The translations under genes were made by a program, and so were the position numbers. The notes under the pieces were generated by a model, which saw only the letters and a program-made list of their open reading frames with translations, had not been told where the DNA came from and did not search any database. Positions 1,017 through 36,162 of a stretch of DNA of 40,656 nucleotides are shown here, one piece after another (positions within the stretch are counted from its first letter, which is position 1; every line of letters starts with the position of its first letter). The DNA lies in assembly GCF_001570365.1 (NCBI RefSeq), contig NZ_BBYK01000043.1, forward strand, positions 1 to 40,656, written 5' to 3'. The stretch comes from Microtetraspora fusca. Its GTDB lineage: Bacteria; Actinomycetota; Actinomycetes; Streptosporangiales; Streptosporangiaceae.

Positions 1017-2612
1017 ATGGCGATCCTGACCAGTCGCTTGGACGCCTCCGCCCCCGAGTACGGCGCGCGCCGCGCGGCCATGCTCGCCCGGCTGGGCGAG
1101 CTGGCGGCCGAGCACGCGAAGGCGGTCGCGGGCGGAGGCCCGAAATACGTGGAGCGGCACCGGGCGCGCGGCAAGCTGCTCGCCCGCGAGCGGATTGAGC
1201 TGCTGCTCGACCCCGACTCCCCGTTCCTCGAACTCTCGCCGCTGGCCGCCTGGGGCACCGACTATCCGGTGGGCGCGAGCGTGGTCACCGGCATCGGGGT
1301 CATCGAGGGCGTCGAGTGTGTGATCAACGCCAACGACCCCACGGTGCGCGGCGGCGCGTCCAACCCGTGGACGCTGCGCAAGTCGCTGCGCGCGGCCGAG
1401 ATCGCCCTGCGCAACCGGCTCCCCCTGGTGAACCTGGTCGAGTCGGGCGGCGCCGACCTCCCCGCGCAGAAGGAGATCTTCATCCCCGGCGGGCAGGTGT
1501 TCCGCGACCTGACCCGGCTGTCGGCCGCGGGCGTCCCGACGATCGCGTTGGTCTTCGGCAACTCGACGGCCGGCGGCGCGTACGTGCCGGGCATGAGCGA
1601 CTACGTCGTCATGGTGAAGGACCGGGCGAAGGTGTTCCTCGGCGGCCCTCCCCTGGTCAAGGTGGCGACCGGTGAGGAGGCCGACGACGAGTCGCTCGGC
1701 GGCGCGGACATGCACGCCCGGACCTCCGGGCTGGCCGACCACCTCGCGGCCGACGAGCACGACGCGCTACGGATCGGCCGCCGGATCGTCGCGCGACTCA
1801 ACCGGCGCGGGCCGGGTTCCGCGCCGGCCGCCGCGCCGCCGCCCCGCTACGACGAGGACGAGCTGCTGGGGATCGTCCCGGAGGACCTGAAGATCCCGTT
1901 CGACCCGCTCGAGGTCATCGCGCGGATCGTGGACGGCAGCGACTTCGACGAGTTCAAGCCGCTGTACGGCCCGAGCCTGGTCACCGGCTGGGCCGCCCTG
2001 CACGGCCACCCGATCGGGATCCTCGCCAACGCCCGGGGCGTGCTGTTCGGCGCGGAGTCACGCAAGGCCGCGCAGTTCATCCAGCTCGCCGACCAGTCGC
2101 GCACGCCGCTGCTCTTCCTCCAGAACACGACCGGATACATGGTGGGCCGCGAGTACGAGCAGGACGGCATCATCAAGCACGGCGCGATGATGATCAACGC
2201 GGTGTCCAACTCGACGGTCCCGCACATCACGATCGTCATGGGCGCCTCCTACGGCGCGGGCAACTACGGCATGTGCGGCCGGGCGTACGACCCCCGTTTC
2301 CTGTTCTCGTGGCCGAGCGCGCGGTCGGCGGTGATGGGGCCCGCGCAGCTCGCGGGCGTGCTGTCCATCGTCGGGCGGGCCGCCGCCGAGGCGAAGGGCC
2401 AGGTCTACGACGAGGAGGCGGACGCCGCCATGCGCCAGGCGGTCGAGGCCCAGGTCGAGGCCGAGTCGCTGCCGTTCTTCCTTTCCGGCCGGCTGTACGA
2501 CGACGGCGTGATCGACCCCCGGGACACGCGCACCGTCCTCGGCCTGTGCCTGTCCGCGATCGGCAACGCCCCGGCCGCCGCGCCCGCGGGCTACGGCGTC
2601 TTCCGGATGTGA
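1017..2612 (+). CDS. Acyl-CoA carboxylase beta (carboxyltransferase) subunit, AtuC-like
   Basis: A 531-residue biotin-dependent carboxyltransferase that moves the carboxyl group from biotin to an acyl-CoA. The usual two crotonase-like halves are visible. The N-terminal half has the [14 protein letters not shown] signature and two oxyanion-type Gly motifs ([15 protein letters not shown] and [14 protein letters not shown]). The C-terminal half has [16 protein letters not shown]. The segment [10 protein letters not shown]...EIF-GGQVF differs from the leucine-type paralogue in this window (34542-36116), which has [10 protein letters not shown]...[11 protein letters not shown]. The SD is weak (GGTGG), but the N-terminus matches the family start. 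It is followed 7 bp later by the alpha subunit, then by a LiuC/AtuE-type hydratase and an AtuA-family gene. That context points to a geranyl-CoA-carboxylase-like enzyme for a branched enoyl-CoA. The true substrate is unknown; methylcrotonyl-CoA is an alternative. Confidence 0.88.
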
Positions 2613-2619
2613 GGGTGCG

Positions 2620-4653
2620 ATGAGGACGATCAACCGGCTGCTGGTCGCCAACCGCGGGGAGATCGCCCGCCGGGTGTTCCGCACCTGCCGCGACCTCGGC
2701 GTGGAGACGGTCGCCGTCTTCTCCGACGTCGACGCGGGCGCGCCGCACGTCGCCGAGGCCGACCAGGCGGTACGGCTCGGCGGCCCCCGGTCGTACCTGG
2801 ACGCGGACGCGATCGTCGGGGCGGCCCGGGCCGCCGGCGCGGACGCCGTCCATCCGGGGTACGGCTTCCTCTCCGAGAACGCCGACTTCGCCCGGGCCGT
2901 GCTCGACGCGGGCCTGATCTGGGTCGGCCCGCCGCCGGAGGCCGTCGCCGCGATGGGCGCCAAGGTCGAGGCGAAGGCGTTGATGGCCGCCGCCGGGGTG
3001 CCGGTGCTCCCGACGTACGACCTCGACGGCCTCGACAGCCTCGACAGCCTCGACAGCCTCGACAGCCTCGACGACGAGGACGCCCGCCCGCGGTTCCCGC
3101 TGCTGGTGAAGGCGTCGGCGGGCGGGGGCGGGCGCGGCATGCGGATCGTGCGCGACGCGGCGGAGCTGCCCGAGGCGGTCGAGTCGGCGCGCCGGGAGGC
3201 GCTCGCGGCCTTCGGCGACGGCACGGTCTTCGCCGAGCCGCTGCTGGAGCACGCCCGGCACATCGAGGTGCAGATCCTGGCCGACGCCCACGGCACGGTC
3301 TGGGCGCTGGGTGAGCGCGAGTGCTCGGTGCAGCGCCGCCACCAGAAGATCGTCGAGGAGTCACCCTCCCCCGCCGTCACCCCGGAGCTGCGCCGCGAGC
3401 TGTGCGACGCGGCGGTGCGGGCCGCGCAGACGATCGGCTACGTCGGCGCGGGCACGGTCGAGTTCCTGGTCAAGGACGACGTCGTCGCCTTCCTGGAGAT
3501 GAACACCCGGCTCCAGGTCGAGCACCCGGTGACCGAGTACGTCTACGGCGTGGACCTGGTCCGGCTCCAGGTGGAGATCGCGGAGGGCGCCCCGCTGCCC
3601 GGACTCCCGCCGAGCCCGGTCGGCCACGCGATCGAGGCCCGTCTCTGCGCGGAGGACCCGGCGAACGGCTGGCGGCCGCAGGCGGGGGTCCTGCACCGCT
3701 TCGAGGTGCCCGGCGTGGACGCCGAGTTCCGCGCCGCCGGGACGCTGCGCCTCGACTCGGGCGTGGCCGACGGCACGACGGTCAGCCCGCACTACGACCC
3801 GATGCTGGCGAAGGTGATCGCGTACGCGCCCACCCGCGCGGGCGCGGCGCGGCGGCTGGCCACCGCGCTCGCCCGGGCCCGGCTCCACGGGCCGGTGACC
3901 AACCGCGACCTGCTCGTCAACGTCCTGCGCCACCCCGAGTTCCTGGCGGGCGAGACCGACACCGGCTTCCTCGACCGGCACGCCGCGGCCGTCTCGGCGC
4001 CGCGCGCCGGCGCGGACGCCGTACGGATCTCCGCGCTGGCGGCCGCGCTCGCGGGCGCGGCGGCCAACCGGGCGGCTGCCCGGGTGCTCGGCGAGCTGCC
4101 CGGCGGCTGGCGCAACGTCGTCTCCCAGCCCCAGCGGACCGCGTTCGCCGTCCCCGGGGAGTCCGGGGAGCGCGTCGAGATCGCCTATCTGATCACCCGG
4201 GACGGCCTGTCGTCCGAGGGGTTCGACGGCGTGGAGCTCGTCTCGGCGACGCCCGGCGAGGTCGTGCTGTCGGTCTCCGGGGTCCGCCGCGCGTTCGCCG
4301 TCCACACCTGTCCGGGCATGACGTACGTCGACTCCGTACTCGGGGCGGTGCGGCTGGCGCCGCTGGAGCGGCTGCCCGAGCCGGCGCGGCTGGTGGAGCC
4401 GGGGTCGTTGCTCGCGCCCATGCCGGGTACGGTCCTTCGCGTCGCCGTCGAACCCGGGGACCGGGTCGCCGCGGGCCAGCCGGTGGTCGTCCTTGAGGCG
4501 ATGAAGATGGAACACCAGATCGTCTCGCCCGGGGCGGGCGTCGTGACGGCGCTCGACGCCGTCGCCGGCCGCCAGGTCGAGGCGGGAGCCGTACTCGCCG
4601 TGATCGAGGAGCAAGCCGATGACAACGCCGATGACAACGCTGGTACGCAGTGA
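2620..4653 (+). CDS. Acyl-CoA carboxylase alpha subunit (biotin carboxylase + biotin carrier), AtuF-like
   Basis: A 677-residue fusion that carboxylates its own biotin using ATP and bicarbonate. It has the N-terminal biotin carboxylase fold (LLVANRGEIARRVFRT, HPGYGFLSEN), an ATP-grasp domain (KASAGGGGRGM, the [14 protein letters not shown] catalytic block), a central less conserved domain, and a C-terminal biotinyl domain whose lysine is in VVLEAMKMEHQ. The start ATG has GAGGG a few bases upstream. Just before the Gly-rich ATP loop sits an in-frame 9-bp tandem repeat adding LDSLDSLDS-type residues, absent from the paralogue at 32496-34511. Its last 35 bp overlap the hydratase gene, indicating coupled translation. 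It partners with the beta subunit upstream. Confidence 0.9.
   Translation: MRTINRLLVANRGEIARRVFRTCRDLGVETVAVFSDVDAGAPHVAEADQAVRLGGPRSYLDADAIVGAARAAGADAVHPGYGFLSENADFARAVLDAGLIWVGPPPEAVAAMGAKVEAKALMAAAGVPVLPTYDLDGLDSLDSLDSLDSLDDEDARPRFPLLVKASAGGGGRGMRIVRDAAELPEAVESARREALAAFGDGTVFAEPLLEHARHIEVQILADAHGTVWALGERECSVQRRHQKIVEESPSPAVTPELRRELCDAAVRAAQTIGYVGAGTVEFLVKDDVVAFLEMNTRLQVEHPVTEYVYGVDLVRLQVEIAEGAPLPGLPPSPVGHAIEARLCAEDPANGWRPQAGVLHRFEVPGVDAEFRAAGTLRLDSGVADGTTVSPHYDPMLAKVIAYAPTRAGAARRLATALARARLHGPVTNRDLLVNVLRHPEFLAGETDTGFLDRHAAAVSAPRAGADAVRISALAAALAGAAANRAAARVLGELPGGWRNVVSQPQRTAFAVPGESGERVEIAYLITRDGLSSEGFDGVELVSATPGEVVLSVSGVRRAFAVHTCPGMTYVDSVLGAVRLAPLERLPEPARLVEPGSLLAPMPGTVLRVAVEPGDRVAAGQPVVVLEAMKMEHQIVSPGAGVVTALDAVAGRQVEAGAVLAVIEEQADDNADDNAGTQ
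3022..3075 (+). repeat. In-frame 9-bp tandem repeat inside biotin carboxylase
   Basis: Six tandem units of CTCGACAGC: the first ends GGC, the next four are perfect, the last ends GAC. They encode repeated Leu-Asp-Ser between the PVLPTYD segment and the ATP-grasp glycine loop. All units are in frame, so copy-number change by slippage would alter linker length without breaking the gene. Confidence 0.95.
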
Positions 4654-20280: not shown

Positions 20281-20676
20281 CTATTCCGTGATCAGCGTTT
20301 TGACGGCGAGTTGCTCCTCGCCCGCGGGGCCGTCGAGGCGGATCGACAGTTCCCAGACGCCGCTCATCGGGAACAGTTCGCCCACGGCCACGAAGCGGCC
20401 GGGCTCACGCATGGTGGCGGAGATCTCGGGTGTGGAGTGTCCCATCTCGGCCATGACCGCCGACAGGGCCACGGTGTCGGCGTCGCCCTTGCTCACCTTG
20501 ATCTCCACAGTGACCTGGCCGGGAGCCGGGTCCGCGATGAGGACGGTGGCGGTGTAGCGGCTGCCCGTGGTGGTCAGGTTGACCGGTTCGGCGGCCGTGC
20601 TCCTGCTCACGACGTACAGCGCCACTGCCGCGATCACGAGCGCGGCCGCGGCCACCGCGTGCCACCTCTTGATCAC
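20281..20676 (-). CDS. Small membrane-anchored YtkA/FixH-like protein
   Basis: A 131-residue protein with an N-terminal signal anchor (AVAAAALVIAAVALYVV) and an extracytoplasmic beta-rich domain. The domain runs VTVEIKVSKGDADTVALSAV, then MAEMGHSTPEISATMREPGRF, GELFPMSGVWELSIRLDG. The M-x-x-M-G-H cluster and the pattern of an immunoglobulin-like fold resemble YtkA/FixH-like domains often found with copper proteins. GTG 20676 has GGAGG 4 nt upstream and overlaps the stop of the preceding gene (GTGA). It is the third gene of the coupled operon and may hand metal to, or receive it from, its neighbours. Function is inferred only from motif and context. Confidence 0.72.
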   Translation of the reverse strand: MIKRWHAVAAAALVIAAVALYVVSRSTAAEPVNLTTTGSRYTATVLIADPAPGQVTVEIKVSKGDADTVALSAVMAEMGHSTPEISATMREPGRFVAVGELFPMSGVWELSIRLDGPAGEEQLAVKTLITE

Positions 20677-21992
20677 TTGGCCTCCGGCGCGGTCACGTTC
20701 ACGGTGAAAGGTACGGTCACGATGCGGTCGGCGGTGGCGTACTGGACCCAGGCGAGGTACCGGCCCGGTTCGGGGAAGCTGAAGGTGAAGCGCACCCGGG
20801 ATCCCGGGGCGCCCATCTCGTGCACGTGGCCGAAGAAGCGGCCATCCTGACCGCGTATGAGCAGGTGGCCGGTCATGCCAAGCCAGGTCCGGACGCCGGC
20901 GGGCGTGTCCAGGTCGATCGTCGTGGGACGGCCCGCGATGGGGACGGCGGGTTGGAGCCGCGGCGTGACGGTCGTGCCCGCCTGCGTGGCGGGCGCGCCG
21001 GTCTTACCGGACTCCGTGACCGTGCCGGACTCTGCCGATGCTTTGGCCGGCCCTCCGACGGTGAAATCCGCGGCGACGAGTTGCCCGCCTGAGTTCTCCC
21101 GTTCGAGCTCGGCGTGCGCCAGGTACCGGCCCGGGCGGCCGGCGCTCAGTCTGACCTCCAGGTGCCCGGGCGCCGTGCGCAGGGGGTGCACGTGCCGGAA
21201 ATACCGCCCGTCCTCGCTGGTGACGACCACATGGGCGAGCGCCTCATGGTGCGCGGTGAGGTCGTCGACCGGCCGCCCGGTCGAGCCGTCGACGAGATCC
21301 ACCCGCAGCGTGAACTCCTCTCCCGCCTCCGGCTGTGCCGGGACCGTCTCCATGCGGGCCTGTACGTACGGCCGCCCTTCCGCGGTCGATGTCGTGGGGG
21401 CGGGGGCGGGGGCGGCGCCGTCCGGTGGGGGTGCCGGTACCTGCGATTCGAACACGATGACCATGGCGGCGACCGTCACCCCGGCCGCGGCACCCGCGGC
21501 CAGCGCCATCGCCCGTCCCGGTCGGGCCGTCGCCCCGGTGAGCAGGCCGCCCACCAGGAGCACCGCGGCCACGAACAGGCCGCCGTAGATGAGGAATGCG
21601 CCTGCCGAGTCGCGTTCGACGAGGACGCGGAACGGGATGACCGCGGTCTCGTTCCCGGCGCTCAGTTTCAGCTCGTGCGGCCCGGTCCGCTCCACCTGGA
21701 GCTGCGTGTACTGCGGGTTCGCCGCCGCCTGGGCGGTGCCGGTCACCGTGCGGCCGTCCTCGACCGAGCGGACCTCGAGGCCGATGGGCAGCCCGGACAC
21801 CGGCTGGTACGCGATGACGCCGATCCGCAGCGGCCCCGGCACCCGGGTTGTTCCTTTGACCACCACTGTCACCTCGGCGCCGGCGATCGTCTGGGCGATC
21901 CGCAGGTCCGTCCCCGCCGTGACGGTGTGCGCGGCGGCGGGGGCGGCCAGCGCCAGCACGAGGACAGCGGCGAGGCACAGGACTCGGATCAT
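20673..21992 (-). CDS. Exported two-domain membrane protein with predicted N-terminal His and duplicated HVH motifs, possible copper protein
   Basis: 439 residues. A signal peptide (MIRVLCLAAVLVLALAAPAAA) is predicted to be cut just before HTVTAG, leaving histidine as residue 1, a hallmark of copper histidine-brace proteins (CopC, LPMO, PmoB). An N-terminal beta-rich domain (about 130 residues) is followed by two adjacent TM helices (AFLIYGGLFVAAVLLVGGLL and AGVTVAAMVIVF). After a Pro-rich linker comes a duplicated extracytoplasmic region carrying AHVVVTSEDGRYFRHVHP and GHLLIRGQDGRFFGHVHE. The order beta domain-two TM-beta domain resembles PmoB/AmoB topology, but the HVH pairs here lie in the second half. 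ATG 21992 overlaps the upstream stop (ATGA). Metal binding is an inference; a copper store, chaperone or sensor are alternatives. Confidence 0.72.
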   Translation of the reverse strand: MIRVLCLAAVLVLALAAPAAAHTVTAGTDLRIAQTIAGAEVTVVVKGTTRVPGPLRIGVIAYQPVSGLPIGLEVRSVEDGRTVTGTAQAAANPQYTQLQVERTGPHELKLSAGNETAVIPFRVLVERDSAGAFLIYGGLFVAAVLLVGGLLTGATARPGRAMALAAGAAAGVTVAAMVIVFESQVPAPPPDGAAPAPAPTTSTAEGRPYVQARMETVPAQPEAGEEFTLRVDLVDGSTGRPVDDLTAHHEALAHVVVTSEDGRYFRHVHPLRTAPGHLEVRLSAGRPGRYLAHAELERENSGGQLVAADFTVGGPAKASAESGTVTESGKTGAPATQAGTTVTPRLQPAVPIAGRPTTIDLDTPAGVRTWLGMTGHLLIRGQDGRFFGHVHEMGAPGSRVRFTFSFPEPGRYLAWVQYATADRIVTVPFTVNVTAPEAK

Positions 21993-23113
21993 GCCCGGCC
22001 GGCGGCGGCCGCGCTGGGCGCAACCGGCTGGGCGGTGACCGCGTTGGGCAGGAACAGCGCCCCGAGCGCCAGCCCGATCAGGCCGGCGACGACCGGCGCG
22101 CCGGTCCACAGTTCGGGCACGGAGGGCAGGCCGCCCCCGGTGGCCGAGGCGACCCCGATGTACAGGGACCACGTGGCGAAGGCCGACAGCCCGGCGAAGG
22201 CCCAGTAGGCGGCGCGCCGCTCACCCGACGGCCGCAGCCGGCGGATCAGCAGGTCGCTCACGAACCCGGCGGCCACGAACGACAGCAGGGTCGGCACGTT
22301 GCGGAACGCCGTCTGGGCACCCGGCATGAGCACCATGATCGTGTACATGACGGTCACCGAGCCGAACGGCAACAGCCAGCGGCGCACCAGGAAGAGCACC
22401 GGGCTGAGCATGACGACGTTGGTGACGACCATCGCGACGGCCACCCGGTCGGTGGCCGGGCCGACCGGTCCAGGACCGGCGCCCGAGTCCCGCAGCATGG
22501 ACAACGCCTGGACGATGCCCTCGGAGCGGTACTGCATGGCGTCGCCGTACGACAGGAACAGCGACACCAGCGTGACGGCGAACGCGAGCCCGATCAACGC
22601 GGGCAGCAGGCGGCCGAGCGAGGGCCGGGCGCCGACATCGGGGGCGTTCCACGCCGAGCGCAGCGGTGTCGTGATGATGAGCATCATCGTCACGATGAGG
22701 CCGAGGTGTGACGGGCTGAACAAGATGTTGATGGTCGTCTCGATGCCGAGGATGGTGTGCCACAGCATGTCGGCGAATCCGAAGGCGGCGAACGCGGGAA
22801 TCGCTACCAACCCGGCGAGATAGCCGGTGGGGACGGCCGCGAGCCCCTGCCGTCCGGCGCGCACGTTGCGCCACACCTGCCAGATGATCCAGCCGGAGAC
22901 CACGGCGAAGCCGGAATAGAACACCGCATGCCATGGAGTGAAGAACGTCTCCAGCTGCGTCAGATTGCTGTGCGCCCAGGCGTCGATCATCAATCCGACC
23001 CCGAACCAGATTCCGAGCAGCGCCGTGACCAGGTCCGTCCTGGGGGACACCCATCCGCGGGGTTCCCCCGTGTCCACCACTAATCGCCGAATGCCGGCGG
23101 CGTCAGATGCCAC
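21989..23113 (-). CDS. Polytopic membrane protein with conserved-looking His/Asp intramembrane motifs
   Basis: 374 residues with about eight or nine hydrophobic segments. Polar residues sit in or near helices in a suggestive way: MIDAWAHSNL, FFTPWHAVFYSG, GFADMLWHTILGIE and LFSPSHLGLIV. The D-x3-H spacing followed 17 residues later by another H is reminiscent of, but not identical to, metal ligands in membrane monooxygenase subunits. I do not recognise the family by name. GTG 23113 is preferred because AAGGA precedes it by 7 nt; ATG 23146 has no SD. A longer in-frame extension upstream belongs to a broken permease. It is first in a three-gene operon with 4-bp overlaps, so it likely acts with the HVH protein in the membrane. 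Confidence 0.72.
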   Translation of the reverse strand: MASDAAGIRRLVVDTGEPRGWVSPRTDLVTALLGIWFGVGLMIDAWAHSNLTQLETFFTPWHAVFYSGFAVVSGWIIWQVWRNVRAGRQGLAAVPTGYLAGLVAIPAFAAFGFADMLWHTILGIETTINILFSPSHLGLIVTMMLIITTPLRSAWNAPDVGARPSLGRLLPALIGLAFAVTLVSLFLSYGDAMQYRSEGIVQALSMLRDSGAGPGPVGPATDRVAVAMVVTNVVMLSPVLFLVRRWLLPFGSVTVMYTIMVLMPGAQTAFRNVPTLLSFVAAGFVSDLLIRRLRPSGERRAAYWAFAGLSAFATWSLYIGVASATGGGLPSVPELWTGAPVVAGLIGLALGALFLPNAVTAQPVAPSAAAAGRA

Positions 23114-23313
23114 GTCGTGATCCTTTCGGCCGATCGAATCGTTCATACGCCGGTGGGCCGGGTGCCCGTCGGCGAACGCGGGTGAGGCGGACGAGGTCTC
23201 TGCGGTCCTGCCGTCACTGACGTAGTCAACTCGATACGGCGAGTGTCGTGGGTCGTTATGCGGGCCTCGGTCTGCTGAGCACCGCTGCTGCCGACGCCTG
23301 CCCAGCGGGCCGA

Positions 23314-23878
23314 TCACGCTGTTTCGGCGCTGAGGGCCTGCGCCACGGGCCTGCGCCACGGGCCGGCGCGCCGCCAGGAGTGCGGGCAGGGCGGTGAGTG
23401 CCGCCGTCGCCAGGAGAGTCGCGAGTGCGGCGCCGAGCAGCCAGAAGGAGGGGGGCACGGTCCACTTCCCGAGAGCGAACATCGAGCACAGGCCGACGCC
23501 CAGAGGGACGCCGATGACGGCGCCGGGCAGCGCGGGCAGGAGCTGGGCGGTGGACAGCCCCGCGGAGATCTGTCCGGGGGTGGCGCCGAGCGTACGCGTG
23601 ATGGCCATGGTCGCCCGGGCCTCCATCGCCGTGGTCCAGGTGAGCGTGATGGTGTTCACGACGGCGAGTGCGATCAGCAGGATGGTGACGGCGAGCATCA
23701 GCCGACGGTCGTGAACGTCTCGCAGGTTGGGCAGGGCGGAGGAGCCATTCAGGCCGTAGCCCCTCTCCGGCTGGGCGTAGAGGAAATCGGCCGCGGCCGG
23801 AGCCGAGCGCGGCTGCGGCCGCCGGGGGTGCGCCCGGAGATGGTCCGGGCACGCGTTGCAGATTCCGGTGCCCGGGGC
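23314..23878 (-). pseudogene. Broken FtsX-like ABC transporter permease (C-terminal remnant)
   Basis: Only the last part of an FtsX/MacB-type permease is recognisable. It reads LRDVHDRRLMLAVTILLIA, then NTITLTWTTAMEARATMAIT, RTLGATPGQI, two more helices and LLAARRPVAQA at the end. The N-terminal half and any start signal are missing; the frame runs straight from the histidine kinase stop. A 13-bp tandem duplication (23334-23359) shifts the frame after PVAQA. Removing one copy restores ALSAETA followed by TGA at 23314-23316, a typical permease ending. Because of the shift the frame reads on into the next gene. Doubly damaged, so a pseudogene. No ATPase partner is nearby. Confidence 0.8.
23334..23359. 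repeat. 13-bp tandem duplication causing frameshift
   Basis: GGGCCTGCGCCAC occurs twice in perfect tandem (23334-23346 and 23347-23359). Thirteen is not a multiple of three; deleting one copy restores the expected permease C-terminus and stop. Confidence 0.92.
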
Positions 23879-25767: not shown

Positions 25768-26205
25768 TCAGGACTCCGGGAGCGGCAGGCGGCGGTCGGT
25801 CAGCTCCCCGGCGCGGTCCGGGGGCAGGCCGTCCGCCCGGACGGTGAAACGGGTGTAGTAGCCGACGCGTTCACGCCAGGTGAGGCCGCTCAGCGTGATC
25901 GTCCCCGGGTACGGCCGGTCCTGGCAGGCGGGCAGGCACCACATGCTGCTGACGCCGCCAATTCCCACGGCCTTCTCCTCTCCCCAGGATGTCCAGCGGA
26001 TCCCGGTCATGCTGTGAAACTCGTCCAGCGCGAAGGCGCTCGGCCGTCGCAGCGGGTCGTCGGGAAAGGCGATGATGTAGACCGGCCCCCTGGGCGGCGA
26101 CGCGGACGGCGCCGGCCCCTCGACCCGCACTCCGCCATCGGCTCCGCACGCGGCCGCCAGCAGAACGGTGCAGAGAAGGGCTGCCCGCCTCACGCCATCT
26201 TTCAT
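25768..26205 (-). CDS. Secreted lipoprotein, paralogue of the next gene upstream
   Basis: About 145 residues with a signal peptide and a cysteine (LLCTVLLAAACGAD) that is probably lipidated, although the lipobox is not ideal at -3. The mature domain shares FHSMTGIRWTSWGEEKAVGI, then SMWCLPACQDRPYPGTITLS with the neighbour at 26254-26721. Two conserved cysteines in WCLPxC probably form a disulfide. ATG 26205 (or GTG 26208) has no SD; a TAGTCT box seven bases before the ATG suggests a leaderless start or reinitiation from the upstream gene, 48 bp away. It is 3 bp from the response regulator and may act as an accessory sensor like CseA, which is inferred only from position. Confidence 0.75.
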   Translation of the reverse strand: MKDGVRRAALLCTVLLAAACGADGGVRVEGPAPSASPPRGPVYIIAFPDDPLRRPSAFALDEFHSMTGIRWTSWGEEKAVGIGGVSSMWCLPACQDRPYPGTITLSGLTWRERVGYYTRFTVRADGLPPDRAGELTDRRLPLPES

Positions 26206-26253
26206 CACGTGGAGACTATGCGAACGTATCCGTGCCCCCGCTCCGGATCACAT

Positions 26254-26721
26254 TCACGGCGTCGGCAGCGACCCGGCGAGCTTGTCGGCCGGATCGGCGG
26301 GCTTGGGGAAGTCGCCGTCGACCGCGAACCGAGTGAAATACCGCGTGCCCTTCACCCTCGTGACGCCACTGAGCGTGACCGTCGCCTCGTACGGCTTCTC
26401 CGTGCAGCCGGGCAGGCACCAGCTCCCGCTCAGCCCACCGGTGCCGACCGCCCGGTCCGGCTCCCAGCTCGTCCAGGTGATCCCGCTCATGGAGCTGAAC
26501 TCCGACAGCACCAGGTTCGCCGGGCGCCTGTCGTCCCGTCCCTGCTCGGCCCCGTACAGGTTGTTCACATAGACGGGCGGCGCGGTCGGCGACGTCGCCA
26601 CCACGGCCTCGGGCGCCGTCCCGGCCGTGGTCGGGGCGCCCTTGGACGCCGGCTCGCCCCCGCCCTGCCCACATGCCGCCACCGTCGTGGCGATCGCCGC
26701 AGCAATGATGATCCTTCGCAT
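26254..26721 (-). CDS. Secreted lipoprotein with WCLPGC domain
   Basis: 155 residues. The signal peptide ends in a good lipobox (TTVAACGQG), then a Pro/Thr/Ala linker and a globular domain containing EFSSMSGITWTSWEPDRAVG, SGSWCLPGCTEKPYEATVTLS and RYFTRFAVDG. The SD is strong (AGGAGGAGAA just before ATG 26721). It is the first gene of the lipoprotein-lipoprotein-regulator-kinase operon and a tandem paralogue of the next gene. Domains of this kind occur as extracellular tails in actinomycetes; their ligand is unknown to me. Upstream (26722-26859) holds AT-richer sequence, including a GATAACTGTTAC near-palindrome, and no other gene. Confidence 0.8.
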   Translation of the reverse strand: MRRIIIAAAIATTVAACGQGGGEPASKGAPTTAGTAPEAVVATSPTAPPVYVNNLYGAEQGRDDRRPANLVLSEFSSMSGITWTSWEPDRAVGTGGLSGSWCLPGCTEKPYEATVTLSGVTRVKGTRYFTRFAVDGDFPKPADPADKLAGSLPTP

Positions 26722-26859
26722 TTCTCCTCCTCGTCCTCGCACTCTGTGCGGACGGAGAGGGCTCCATTCGAACGCCTTCCCCCGTTCCCGCACGTCGATG
26801 ACGTTAGGAGCGGCGTTTCTCGGCCTTCCGGCAGCTGTGTAACAGTTATCCATCCGCGT

Positions 26860-27103
26860 GGCGGGAAGGTCGCGGCCGAGTACCACACGGCGCGGTTCGC
26901 CGCGCAGTTGGACCGCGAGTGCATCCAGGAGAAGACCTGGAGGGCCGGCAGGCCGCCACCGCCAAGGGCAACCACGGCGGTCGGTCCCGGATGATCAACC
27001 AGGACATGCTCATCTTCGCCCGCGCGCTGCGGGAGCACGGCATGCCGATCCCCGAGATCGCTCATGCATCAAGACCGGCAAGAATGCCGGGGAAGCACAG
27101 TGA
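26860..27103 (+). pseudogene. Remnant of a serine recombinase (resolvase/invertase family)
   Basis: The translation gives FAAQLDRECIQEKT in one frame, then LEGRQAATAKGNHGGRSR, MINQDMLIFARALREHGMPI and PEIA in a second, and IKTGKNAGEAQ before a stop in a third. Together these spell the hinge and C-terminal HTH part of a small actinomycete serine recombinase. The shift near 26937 is explained by loss of one C in ACC(C)TGGAG; a second lesion lies around 27062-27070. The N-terminal catalytic domain is absent. This is a decayed fragment, perhaps of a former mobile element; no terminal repeats were found. Confidence 0.7.

Positions 27104-32495: not shown

Positions 32496-32499
<4 letters not shown>
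31537..32499 (-). CDS. Hydroxymethylglutaryl-CoA lyase
   Basis: A 320-residue TIM-barrel lyase that splits 3-hydroxy-3-methylglutaryl-CoA into acetoacetate and acetyl-CoA, the last step of leucine breakdown. Family motifs are [15 protein letters not shown] at the N-terminus, [32 protein letters not shown], the metal-binding [12 protein letters not shown] and the Cys-containing loop [19 protein letters not shown] 32499 overlaps the stop of the carboxylase alpha gene (ATGA) and has GGGAG 6 nt before it. Gene order with the carboxylase genes parallels the Streptomyces accD1-accA1-hmgL-acdH locus. Confidence 0.94.
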
Positions 32500-34511
<2,012 letters not shown>

Positions 34512-34541
34512 GCCGTCACCTCCTCTCCACGATCACGTTGC

Positions 34542-36116
34542 TCACATCCGGAAGACGCCGTACCCGACCGGGTCGAGCGGGGCGCCGGCCGCCGCCGACA
34601 GGGCCAGGCCGAGGACGGTGCGGGTGTCCACGGGGTCGATCACCCCGTCGTCCCACAGCCGGGCGGTCGAGTAGTACGGGTTTCCCTGGTGCTCGTACTG
34701 GGCGCGGATCGCGTCCTGGTCCGCGCTGCCGACGGTGGAGAGCACGTTCGCGGCCTGCTCGCCGCCCATGACCGAGATGCGGGCGTTCGGCCACATCCAC
34801 AGGAAGCGCGGCGAGTACGCCCGCCCGGCCATGGCGTAGTTGCCCGCGCCGAACGAGCCGCCGATGATCACGGTGAACTTGGGCACCCGCGCGCAGGCGA
34901 CGGCGGTGACCATCTTGGCCCCGTGCTTGGCGATGCCGCCCGCCTCGTACGCCCGGCCGACCATGAAACCGCTGATGTTCTGCAGGAACACCAGCGGGAT
35001 CGACCGCCGGTCGCACAGCTCGATGAAGTGCGCGCCCTTCAGGGCCGACTCGGAGAAGAGGATGCCGTTGTTGGCGACGATCCCGACCGGGTGCCCGTGC
35101 AGCCGGGCGAACCCGGTGACCAGGGTCGGGCCGTACTCCGCCTTGAACTCCAGGAAACGGCTGCCGTCCACGATGCGCGCGATGACCTCCCGCACGTCGT
35201 ACGGCGTCCGCGTGTCCTGCGGGACGATGCCGTACAGCTCGTGCGGGTCGTAGGCGGGCGGCTCGGACGGGATGGTCTCCCACGGCCGCGCGGCGCGCGG
35301 CGGCAGCGTGGCCACGATGTCGCGGACGATCCGCAGCGCGTGGGCGTCGTCCTCGGCGAGGTGGTCGGTCACGCCGCTGGTCCTGGCGTGGACCTCGCCG
35401 CCGCCGAGCTCCTCGGCCGTGACGGTCTCGCCGGTGGCCGCCTTCACCAGCGGCGGCCCGCCCAGGAAGATCGTGCCCTGGTTCCGCACGATCACGGCCT
35501 CGTCGCTCATCGCCGGGACGTACGCGCCTCCGGCGGTGCACGAGCCGAGCACGGCCGCGATCTGCGGGATGCCGCGCGCGGACATGGTGGCCTGGTTGTA
35601 GAAGATCCGCCCGAAATGCTCACGGTCGGGGAACACCTCGTCCTGCTTGGGCAGGAACGCGCCGCCCGAGTCGACGAGGTAGACGCACGGCAGGTGGTTG
35701 TCGAGGGCCACCTCCTGCGCCCGCAGGTGCTTCTTGACGGTGAGCGGGTAGTACGTGCCGCCCTTCACCGTGGCGTCGTTGGCCACCACGACGACCTCGC
35801 GGCCGGACACCCGGCCGATGCCGGTGATGATGCCGGCGGCGGGCGCCTGCCCGTCGTACAGGCCGTCGGCCGCGAGCGGCGACAGTTCCAGGAACCTGCC
35901 GCCCGGGTCGAGCAGCGCGTCCACCCGGTCTCTGGGCAGCAGCTTGCCCCGGGCGACGTGCCGCTCGCGGGCGCGCGGCGGGCCGCCCTCCGCGGCGGCG
36001 GCCAGCCGCTGCCGCAGCTCGGCGGCCGACTGCTCGCCCGCCTCCGCGTTCCGCTTGTACGGCTCGCCACCCGGATCACAGGCGCTACGCAGCACCGGCC
36101 ACGGGTTCGGCTCCAT
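34542..36116 (-). CDS. Methylcrotonyl-CoA carboxylase-type beta subunit (carboxyltransferase)
   Basis: A 524-residue carboxyltransferase. Signature segments are [93 protein letters not shown] and, in the second half, [20 protein letters not shown]. The [13 protein letters not shown] and [13 protein letters not shown] blocks are typical of methylcrotonyl-CoA carboxylase rather than propionyl or geranyl types. ATG 36116 ([11 protein letters not shown]) has GGAGG eight bases upstream; a longer frame to 36155 would cross the operator. First gene of the operon and divergent from the TetR gene, with operators in the shared promoter region. Confidence 0.92.
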
Positions 36117-36134
36117 GCCGTCCACCTCCGGCGA

Positions 36135-36150
36135 GTTAATGGTCGCTAAC
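36135..36150. promoter_or_regulatory. Operator 1 in the TetR/carboxylase intergenic region
   Basis: GTTAATGGTCGCTAAC. Its reverse complement matches operator 2 at 13 of 16 positions, with outer GTTA/TAAC conserved. It lies 19 bp before the beta-subunit ATG. Confidence 0.65.
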
Positions 36151-36162
36151 ACCACCGGCGAT

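Follow-up and report, generated by a model that had tools for sequence, protein, structure and literature searches.

What is the function of three coupled genes in the soil actinobacterium Microtetraspora fusca, the first of which encodes a polytopic membrane protein that matches no family in Pfam or NCBIfam? The genes lie within a stretch of 40,656 nucleotides (contig NZ_BBYK01000043.1, positions 1 to 40,656; hereafter the window) from a genome of 9.02 Mb. A sequence-only reading of this DNA had proposed a membrane copper system, perhaps tied to a copper membrane enzyme, and had claimed no homology to the particulate methane monooxygenase. Homology and genomic context, as described below, support the proposed copper system in part; the superfamily to which gene 1 belongs shares a detectable remote homology with PmoC/AmoC, without any claim that it is a member of the monooxygenases. 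We lean slightly towards the view that the trio would form a membrane-anchored copper-handling complex built around a PmoC-type core and lacking PmoA.

The genes occupy positions 23113-21989 (gene 1), 21992-20673 (gene 2) and 20676-20281 (gene 3) of the minus strand and are joined by two 4-bp overlaps, as the sequence-only reading had stated. An alignment-based scan found 540 relatives of gene 1, of which 80 named ones were kept; counts out of 80 refer to these. Labels such as L053 and L167 denote regions holding relatives, and subfamily a is the window's own, which together with subfamilies b and c makes up the wider superfamily.

Gene 1 and its two ligand motifs

21989..23113, minus strand: gene 1 (P0001), a polytopic membrane protein of 374 residues, whose superfamily is remotely related to PmoC/AmoC (profile comparison, structure model)
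22928..22984, minus strand: first ligand motif, D44-x3-H48-x6-E55-x4-P60-W-H62 (superfamily-level alignment with the CuC site of PmoC)
22706..22771, minus strand: second ligand motif, D115-x3-H119-x5-E125-x8-P134-S-H136 (superfamily-level alignment with the CuD site; Asp replaces Asn)

Like gene 1 itself, 46 of its relatives (alignment A2) match no Pfam family, and the curated Pfam AmoC model (PF04896) matches neither P0001 nor the A2 members at expect (E) values up to 10. The motifs singled out from the sequence alone are all present and conserved, namely T59-P-W-H62, D44-x3-H48 and S133-P-S-H136 in gene 1, two copies of GR[YF]FxHVH in gene 2 and MAEMGH in gene 3; to these can be added a second D-x3-H of gene 1 (D115/H119), which had not been mentioned. 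D44 and H48 are kept in 79/80 relatives (with one gap), and H62, D115, H119 and H136 in 80/80. Among 25 phylum-level and plasmid relatives, each of the six ligands is kept in 24 or 25, and all six are kept throughout subfamily b (7/7) and subfamily c (11/11). Left out of the ligand table were L053 and a Chlorohelix fusion (degenerate), L047 (partial), the fragments L183 and L279 and the repeats L282 and L284; L185 and L188 were excluded from the subfamily c group.

The structure model of gene 1 is confident, with a predicted local distance difference test (pLDDT) score of 89.3. In each motif the Asp-His pair (D44/H48, D115/H119) is placed close to where a helix ends and the second His (H62, H136) close to where the following helix begins, with further helices predicted beyond the motif region. 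The two loops that connect the ligand residues contain no Lys or Arg and the surrounding loops contain 3, 1 and 1, which weakly suggests that both sites lie on the outer face.

Of 296 actinobacterial genomes, 18 contain a match to gene 1; of 200 genomes from the host's family, 29 do, a small number of these matches being weak or incomplete. Relatives are also carried by plasmids from Deinococcus, Paenibacillus, Rhodococcus, Arthrobacter, Nonomuraea and Chlorohelix. The closest named relative, from Microtetraspora niveoalba, is 91% identical. On the Chlorohelix plasmid (L268:4893-9014), a protein annotated as a histidine kinase includes a membrane region resembling gene 1, in which the ligands are degenerate and which an insert rich in repeats divides in two (judged by eye).

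Relationship of the gene-1 superfamily to PmoC/AmoC

In PmoC, the CuC site is formed by Asp156, His160 and His173 (PMC12576850) and the CuD site by Asn227, His231 and His245 (PMC11194816); in the archaeal sequences of a further study the C site is described as fully conserved and D sites as not observed (PMC9038741).

Subfamily b ('SWDVQWH...DTFFTLPH') surfaced as weak matches beside homologues of genes 2 and 3, and profile-profile comparison relates it to subfamily a with 97% probability (E 1.1e-10); subfamily c was reached by searching with subfamily b, and the same two motifs were seen in the PmoC of an actinobacterial genome. A profile of subfamily a alone finds 5/7 members of b (E 6e-12 to 1e-13) and 6/11 of c (E 1.8e-11 to 9.5e-4); the remaining members of both fall short of significance, and the highest-placed unrelated protein has E 0.005.

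The main test was made with a profile of the motif region of subfamilies a, b and c, built from 23 sequences with no PmoC included and run against 177,635 distinct PDB sequences. Six matches were obtained at E<=10, and all are PmoC/AmoC (E 1.6e-4 to 3.8e-4). The alignment covers about 125 positions and spans both copper sites, pairing motif 1 with CuC and motif 2 with CuD. With hhalign, the superfamily is aligned to PmoC at 93.2% (E 3e-7, score 50.6), the best of 14 decoy membrane families scoring 15.8 and reversed PmoC 20.0. A further ranking drew on a pool that combined 1521 neighbour proteins, of which 111 belong to the family, with 17 PmoC. A module profile of b and c places 17/17 PmoC above all pool sequences except the family and one further relative (L182_3), and a module profile from all subfamilies does so for 15/17. 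When members were not filtered by motif, the 17 PmoC were found at E 4.1e-6 (best), 5.5e-5 (median) and 0.076 (worst), the weakest (9.1 bits) lying below two gene-2 homologues (11.4 and 11.2 bits). In the reciprocal direction, family members fill the first 21 non-PmoC places with a trimmed PmoC profile (best E 0.004) and the first 12 with a full-length one (best E 0.037).

The CuC ligand set, Asp-x3-His...His, is present in gene 1, and sequence homology to PmoC/AmoC is detected by profile for the superfamily, not for the window's subfamily alone. Taken alone, the first gene-1 motif has the spacing (0,2,4,11,16,18) of the PmoC CuD motif. Gene 1 differs from PmoC/AmoC in its length, 374 residues against 236-289 in six PDB chains, and in the helices that follow the motif region; the other two proteins of the trio match neither PmoA nor PmoB. 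No AmoC was matched in the window's genome at E<=0.001, and no PmoC relative was found by protein search of viral contigs or in a phage collection; a DNA-pattern search on the same question gave 67 matches. AmoC and gene 1 co-occur in 3/3 AmoC genomes, which was set aside as evidence because all three genomes belong to one family. One actinobacterial cluster (L197) resembles pmoCAB, with amoC alone tested, and is followed by two small membrane proteins with LAHGG and LAHSG.

CtaG(-CopD) (PF09678) was considered as another relative, being polytopic, copper-linked and common in actinobacteria (40/41 genomes). It was rejected: hhalign of the gene-1 superfamily against 20 CtaG-type proteins scores 13.6, which is at decoy level.

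Gene 2: a PmoB-like layout

20673..21992, minus strand: gene 2 (P0002), 439 residues, with signal peptide, beta domain, two transmembrane helices and two related beta domains (model, alignment)
21930..21992, minus strand: likely signal peptide, residues 1-21, AAA|H22 (cleavage site read by eye)
21447..21605, minus strand: two adjacent transmembrane helices, residues 130-182 (130-152 and 160-182; structure model)
21186..21209, minus strand: GRYFRHVH (262-269), first His-x-His motif (sequence, alignment)
20820..20843, minus strand: GRFFGHVH (384-391), second His-x-His motif, in a repeat of the preceding domain (sequence, alignment, BLASTP)

PmoB consists of a signal peptide, a beta domain, two transmembrane helices and a beta region. 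The structure model of gene 2 (mean pLDDT 71.7) predicts a beta domain, two transmembrane helices and two beta domains, and so agrees with the order of beta domain, adjacent helices and beta region read from the sequence. The two C-terminal beta domains repeat one another, each with H...H-x-H (BLASTP E 2e-10 in a single comparison). In the 37 close gene-2 sequences, which include that of the window (one 98-residue fragment, L075, was dropped), H22, H248, H249, H254, H267, H269, M373, H376, H389 and H391 are kept in every case; H254, H267, H269, H376, H389 and H391 are kept in 45/45 aligned sequences when 8 distant homologues are added.

The resemblance to PmoB (PF04744) therefore has two parts, the layout and, in close homologues, the histidine expected at the mature N-terminus. 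H22, the residue after the likely AAA|H cleavage site, is conserved in the close sequences but found in only 2/8 distant homologues and lost in 6/8. Two profile searches of the PDB with gene 2 found no PmoB: the topology proposed from the sequence stands as architecture, without detectable sequence homology. The combination of a mature N-terminal His with H-x-H that makes up the CuB site (ligands as in PMC12576850) is likewise missing, since the first beta domain of gene 2 contains no H-x-H and both such motifs are in the C-terminal domains. Foldseek gave 250 PDB matches to gene 2 at E<=0.001; the 50 listed are generic beta-sandwich proteins (TM-score <=0.32) and would seem to reflect the fold type and nothing more.

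Some proteins match only the C-terminal domains of gene 2. Among the loci returned by the search, 23 were examined, and the fetched flanks hold a CopZ-like open reading frame in 17/23 and a CsoR-like one in 9/23; the genome from which the window comes has one such protein itself, encoded after CsoR and CopZ. Other operon types (L178-L181, L189, L191 and L193) join homologues of genes 2 and 3 with subfamily b, and six of these seven also encode a secreted protein of about 180-215 residues ('IVHTExVQ...WPxxAMQSxDF', A6). In L300, the called genes of this kind are subfamily b and an A6-type secreted protein only.

Gene 3: a YtkA-like domain

20281..20676, minus strand: gene 3 (P0003), 131 residues, with an N-terminal hydrophobic anchor (by eye) and a YtkA-like domain (Pfam, alignment)
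20437..20454, minus strand: MAEMGH (75-80); M75, M78, H80 and M104 are invariant in 37 gene-3 sequences

The match of gene 3 to YtkA/CtaK (PF13115) is weak but consistent: all 37 members match the Pfam model at E<=10 (best 9.5e-8), with the Met and His residues kept, although the window's own gene 3, at 21.3 bits, scores below the curated cut-off of 25.9. The gene-3 profile also matches PDB entry 9ll2, 'Copper resistance protein' (E 0.0046). YtkA domains of Bacillus subtilis have been implicated in supplying copper and in the assembly of CuA (PMC13344008).

Genomic context of the trio and its relatives

Among the gene-1 loci, gene 2 is present in 37/80 and gene 3 in 38/80. The genes of the trio, whose co-occurrence had been suggested as a check, are contiguous in 36/80 loci, all from Streptosporangiaceae. 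By our own gene calling, the 4-bp overlap recurs in 34 of these 36 between genes 1 and 2 and in 32 between genes 2 and 3.

In some of the more distant loci, gene 1 lies among copper genes. The order is CopA-type ATPase, CsoR, CopZ and gene 1 in L167, and CopA, CopZ, CsoR, multicopper oxidase and gene 1 in L168; a plastocyanin-type protein adjoins gene 1 in L166, and CopC and CopD adjoin a further gene-1 relative in L301. Loci of the Saccharothrix type have, after gene 1, a membrane protein starting AHAGG (12/80), a cupredoxin-like protein (10/80) and a further polytopic protein (12/80). Membrane proteins unmatched in Pfam (starting AHAGG and HG[VL]G) accompany cupredoxin-like genes and gene-1 relatives at L123:9011-11204 and L298:7359-8711; their kinship was judged by eye. 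Seven plasmid regions carry annotation and two more carry none. Two Rhodococcus plasmids encode a multicopper oxidase and ctaD, and in one region a heavy-metal ATPase lies 2.6 kb from the gene-1 relative with a transposase between; the others comprise the Chlorohelix kinase fusion, one region with a cytochrome c biogenesis gene only and two without copper-type genes.

In the window, the trio is preceded by an FtsX-like remnant, a HAMP/HisKA histidine kinase and an OmpR-type regulator.

23200..23698, minus strand: C-terminal remnant of an FtsX-like permease, immediately upstream of gene 1

In some relatives (L058, L060 and L063) this upstream position is taken by PadR, ABC ATPase and FtsX genes, and relatives of these genes are found near gene 1 in 8/80 (PadR), 10/80 (ABC) and 8/80 (FtsX) loci. 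By eye, the window also contains two adjacent small lipoprotein-like genes that are apparent tandem duplicates (25768-26886), and two separate gene pairs resembling acyl-CoA carboxylase subunits (1017-4653 and 32496-36155).

Proposed function and rival explanations

We favour copper handling because the gene-1 superfamily is remotely homologous to PmoC, the ligands are conserved and copper genes lie near part of the relatives. Gene 1 would have two putative metal sites, one formed by D44/H48/H62 and the other by D115/H119/H136. Both would lie where helices end, probably facing outwards, and would correspond to CuC and CuD of PmoC/AmoC, with which the core would share its ancestry. The contribution of genes 2 and 3 would be His/Met domains outside the cytoplasm, tethered to the membrane; these most likely bind copper and either deliver it to gene 1 or receive it from there, as has been proposed for domains of the YtkA/CtaK and CopC types. 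The likely role would be acquisition, buffering or delivery of copper in the cell envelope, under two-component control in some relatives. Copper binding by the sites, their side of the membrane, the complex of three proteins and the direction of copper flow are what we infer here.

A number of observations weigh against this reading. The profile of the window's own subfamily a fails to reach PmoC (best E 5.4 and 1.6), and A1 at full length reaches the 17 PmoC with only E 0.048, its alignment running in another register; on a PmoC alignment of three sequences, A1 and A5, also at full length, give E 0.2 and 0.09. Profiles of b only and c only find PmoC at E 0.0014 and 0.001, interspersed with weak family members, and a clear reach to PmoC is obtained only with the combined superfamily profile. 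The link to PmoC is thus transitive, by way of subfamilies b and c. In the structure comparison that had been suggested as a check, Foldseek with the predicted model of gene 1 found no PDB or viral (BFVD) match at E<=0.001, and there is no PmoC among the 50 listed of 274 PDB matches with E<=10. At the CuD site, the position aligned with Asn227 is Asp in 80/80, with both His kept. Conservation of the histidines, also called for earlier, is nearly complete in the gene-1 relatives and the close gene-2 sequences, but the phylum-level relative L053 has no first site, the His ligands are lost in the Chlorohelix fusion, and H22 of gene 2 is lost as described above. As to context, copper genes were seen by eye in just 3/18 phylum-level gene-1 regions (L166, L167 and L168), the other 15 having none and one of them (L158) having a kinase-regulator pair; among subfamily-c regions the count is only 1/12, again by eye, the one being L298 with its cupredoxin-like gene and a subfamily-c match at E 6.7e-4. 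Relatives without a nearby copper gene include those of Pseudonocardia, where gene 1 adjoins genes resembling M16 peptidases (by eye), Deinococcus deserti and Deinococcus taeanensis.

Since an oxygenase subunit has this type of core, the main rival is a copper-dependent membrane oxidase or oxygenase, in which gene 1 would be a PmoC-type catalytic core acting on a small substrate, with gene 2 taking over the function of PmoB. Apart from the change of Asn to Asp, the two ligand sets of PmoC are retained, gene 2 combines a PmoB-like layout with an N-terminal His in all of its close homologues, and a modelling paper puts catalysis at CuD (PMC11194816). It is at CuD, however, that the Asn has been replaced; moreover, neither a PmoA or PmoB relative nor an evident electron donor can be detected in the trio, and the informative neighbours are copper-homeostasis genes. 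We regard an enzyme of this kind as unlikely. Alternatively, gene 1 might serve as the membrane sensor in a two-component system that responds to copper. In 19/80 loci it has a HisKA_3 kinase and a LuxR-type regulator on its own strand, no more than three genes ahead of it or four behind, and in the distant genome of L158 they come just before it; the gene-1-like region of Chlorohelix is inside a protein annotated as a histidine kinase. That fusion is, however, one in which the ligands have been lost, the kinase-regulator pair is absent within the same range in 61/80 loci, and sensing alone would leave genes 2 and 3 unexplained, so that we consider a sensor quite unlikely.

The choice of metal could be questioned too. 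The sites might bind iron, zinc or manganese, or be structural, the resemblance to PmoC then being that of a shared membrane scaffold only. Asp/His/Glu ligand sets suit harder metals as well, most distant relatives have no copper gene nearby, and copper binding by gene 1 is putative; yet copper neighbours recur across unrelated lineages, and the PmoC sites to which the motifs align bind copper (PMC12576850, PMC11194816). This explanation seems to us very unlikely. The copper-handling complex on a PmoC-type core remains the reading that we prefer.

Implications for the origin of copper membrane monooxygenases

The position and role of the copper sites of PmoC have long been argued (PMC12576850, PMC11194816), and an evolutionary study of copper membrane monooxygenases took its outgroup from inside the enzyme family, the archaeal ammonia monooxygenase (PMC6215863). 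Among the titles and abstract openings listed in searches of open-licence literature, no report of PmoC relatives outside the monooxygenases was found, which is not proof of absence. A broader proposition, on which we are evenly divided, is that PmoC/AmoC form a single branch within a more ancient superfamily, whose members are membrane metal proteins that bear D-x3-H...H sites in pairs and are found in actinobacteria, Deinococcus, Chloroflexota and Bacillota and partly in copper-handling loci. The copper membrane monooxygenases would then have arisen when such a core joined PmoA and PmoB, and the trio would be a PmoA-free member with its own extracytoplasmic copper subunits, possibly an oxidase.

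A superfamily that carries the same paired sites in genomes where no AmoC is detected would serve as an outgroup for the copper membrane monooxygenases and as a simpler system in which to study PmoC-type sites. The function of a membrane family without a name becomes testable. Such a superfamily would also give the methane- and ammonia-oxidising enzymes a candidate origin in copper handling, and may show where those enzymes came from.

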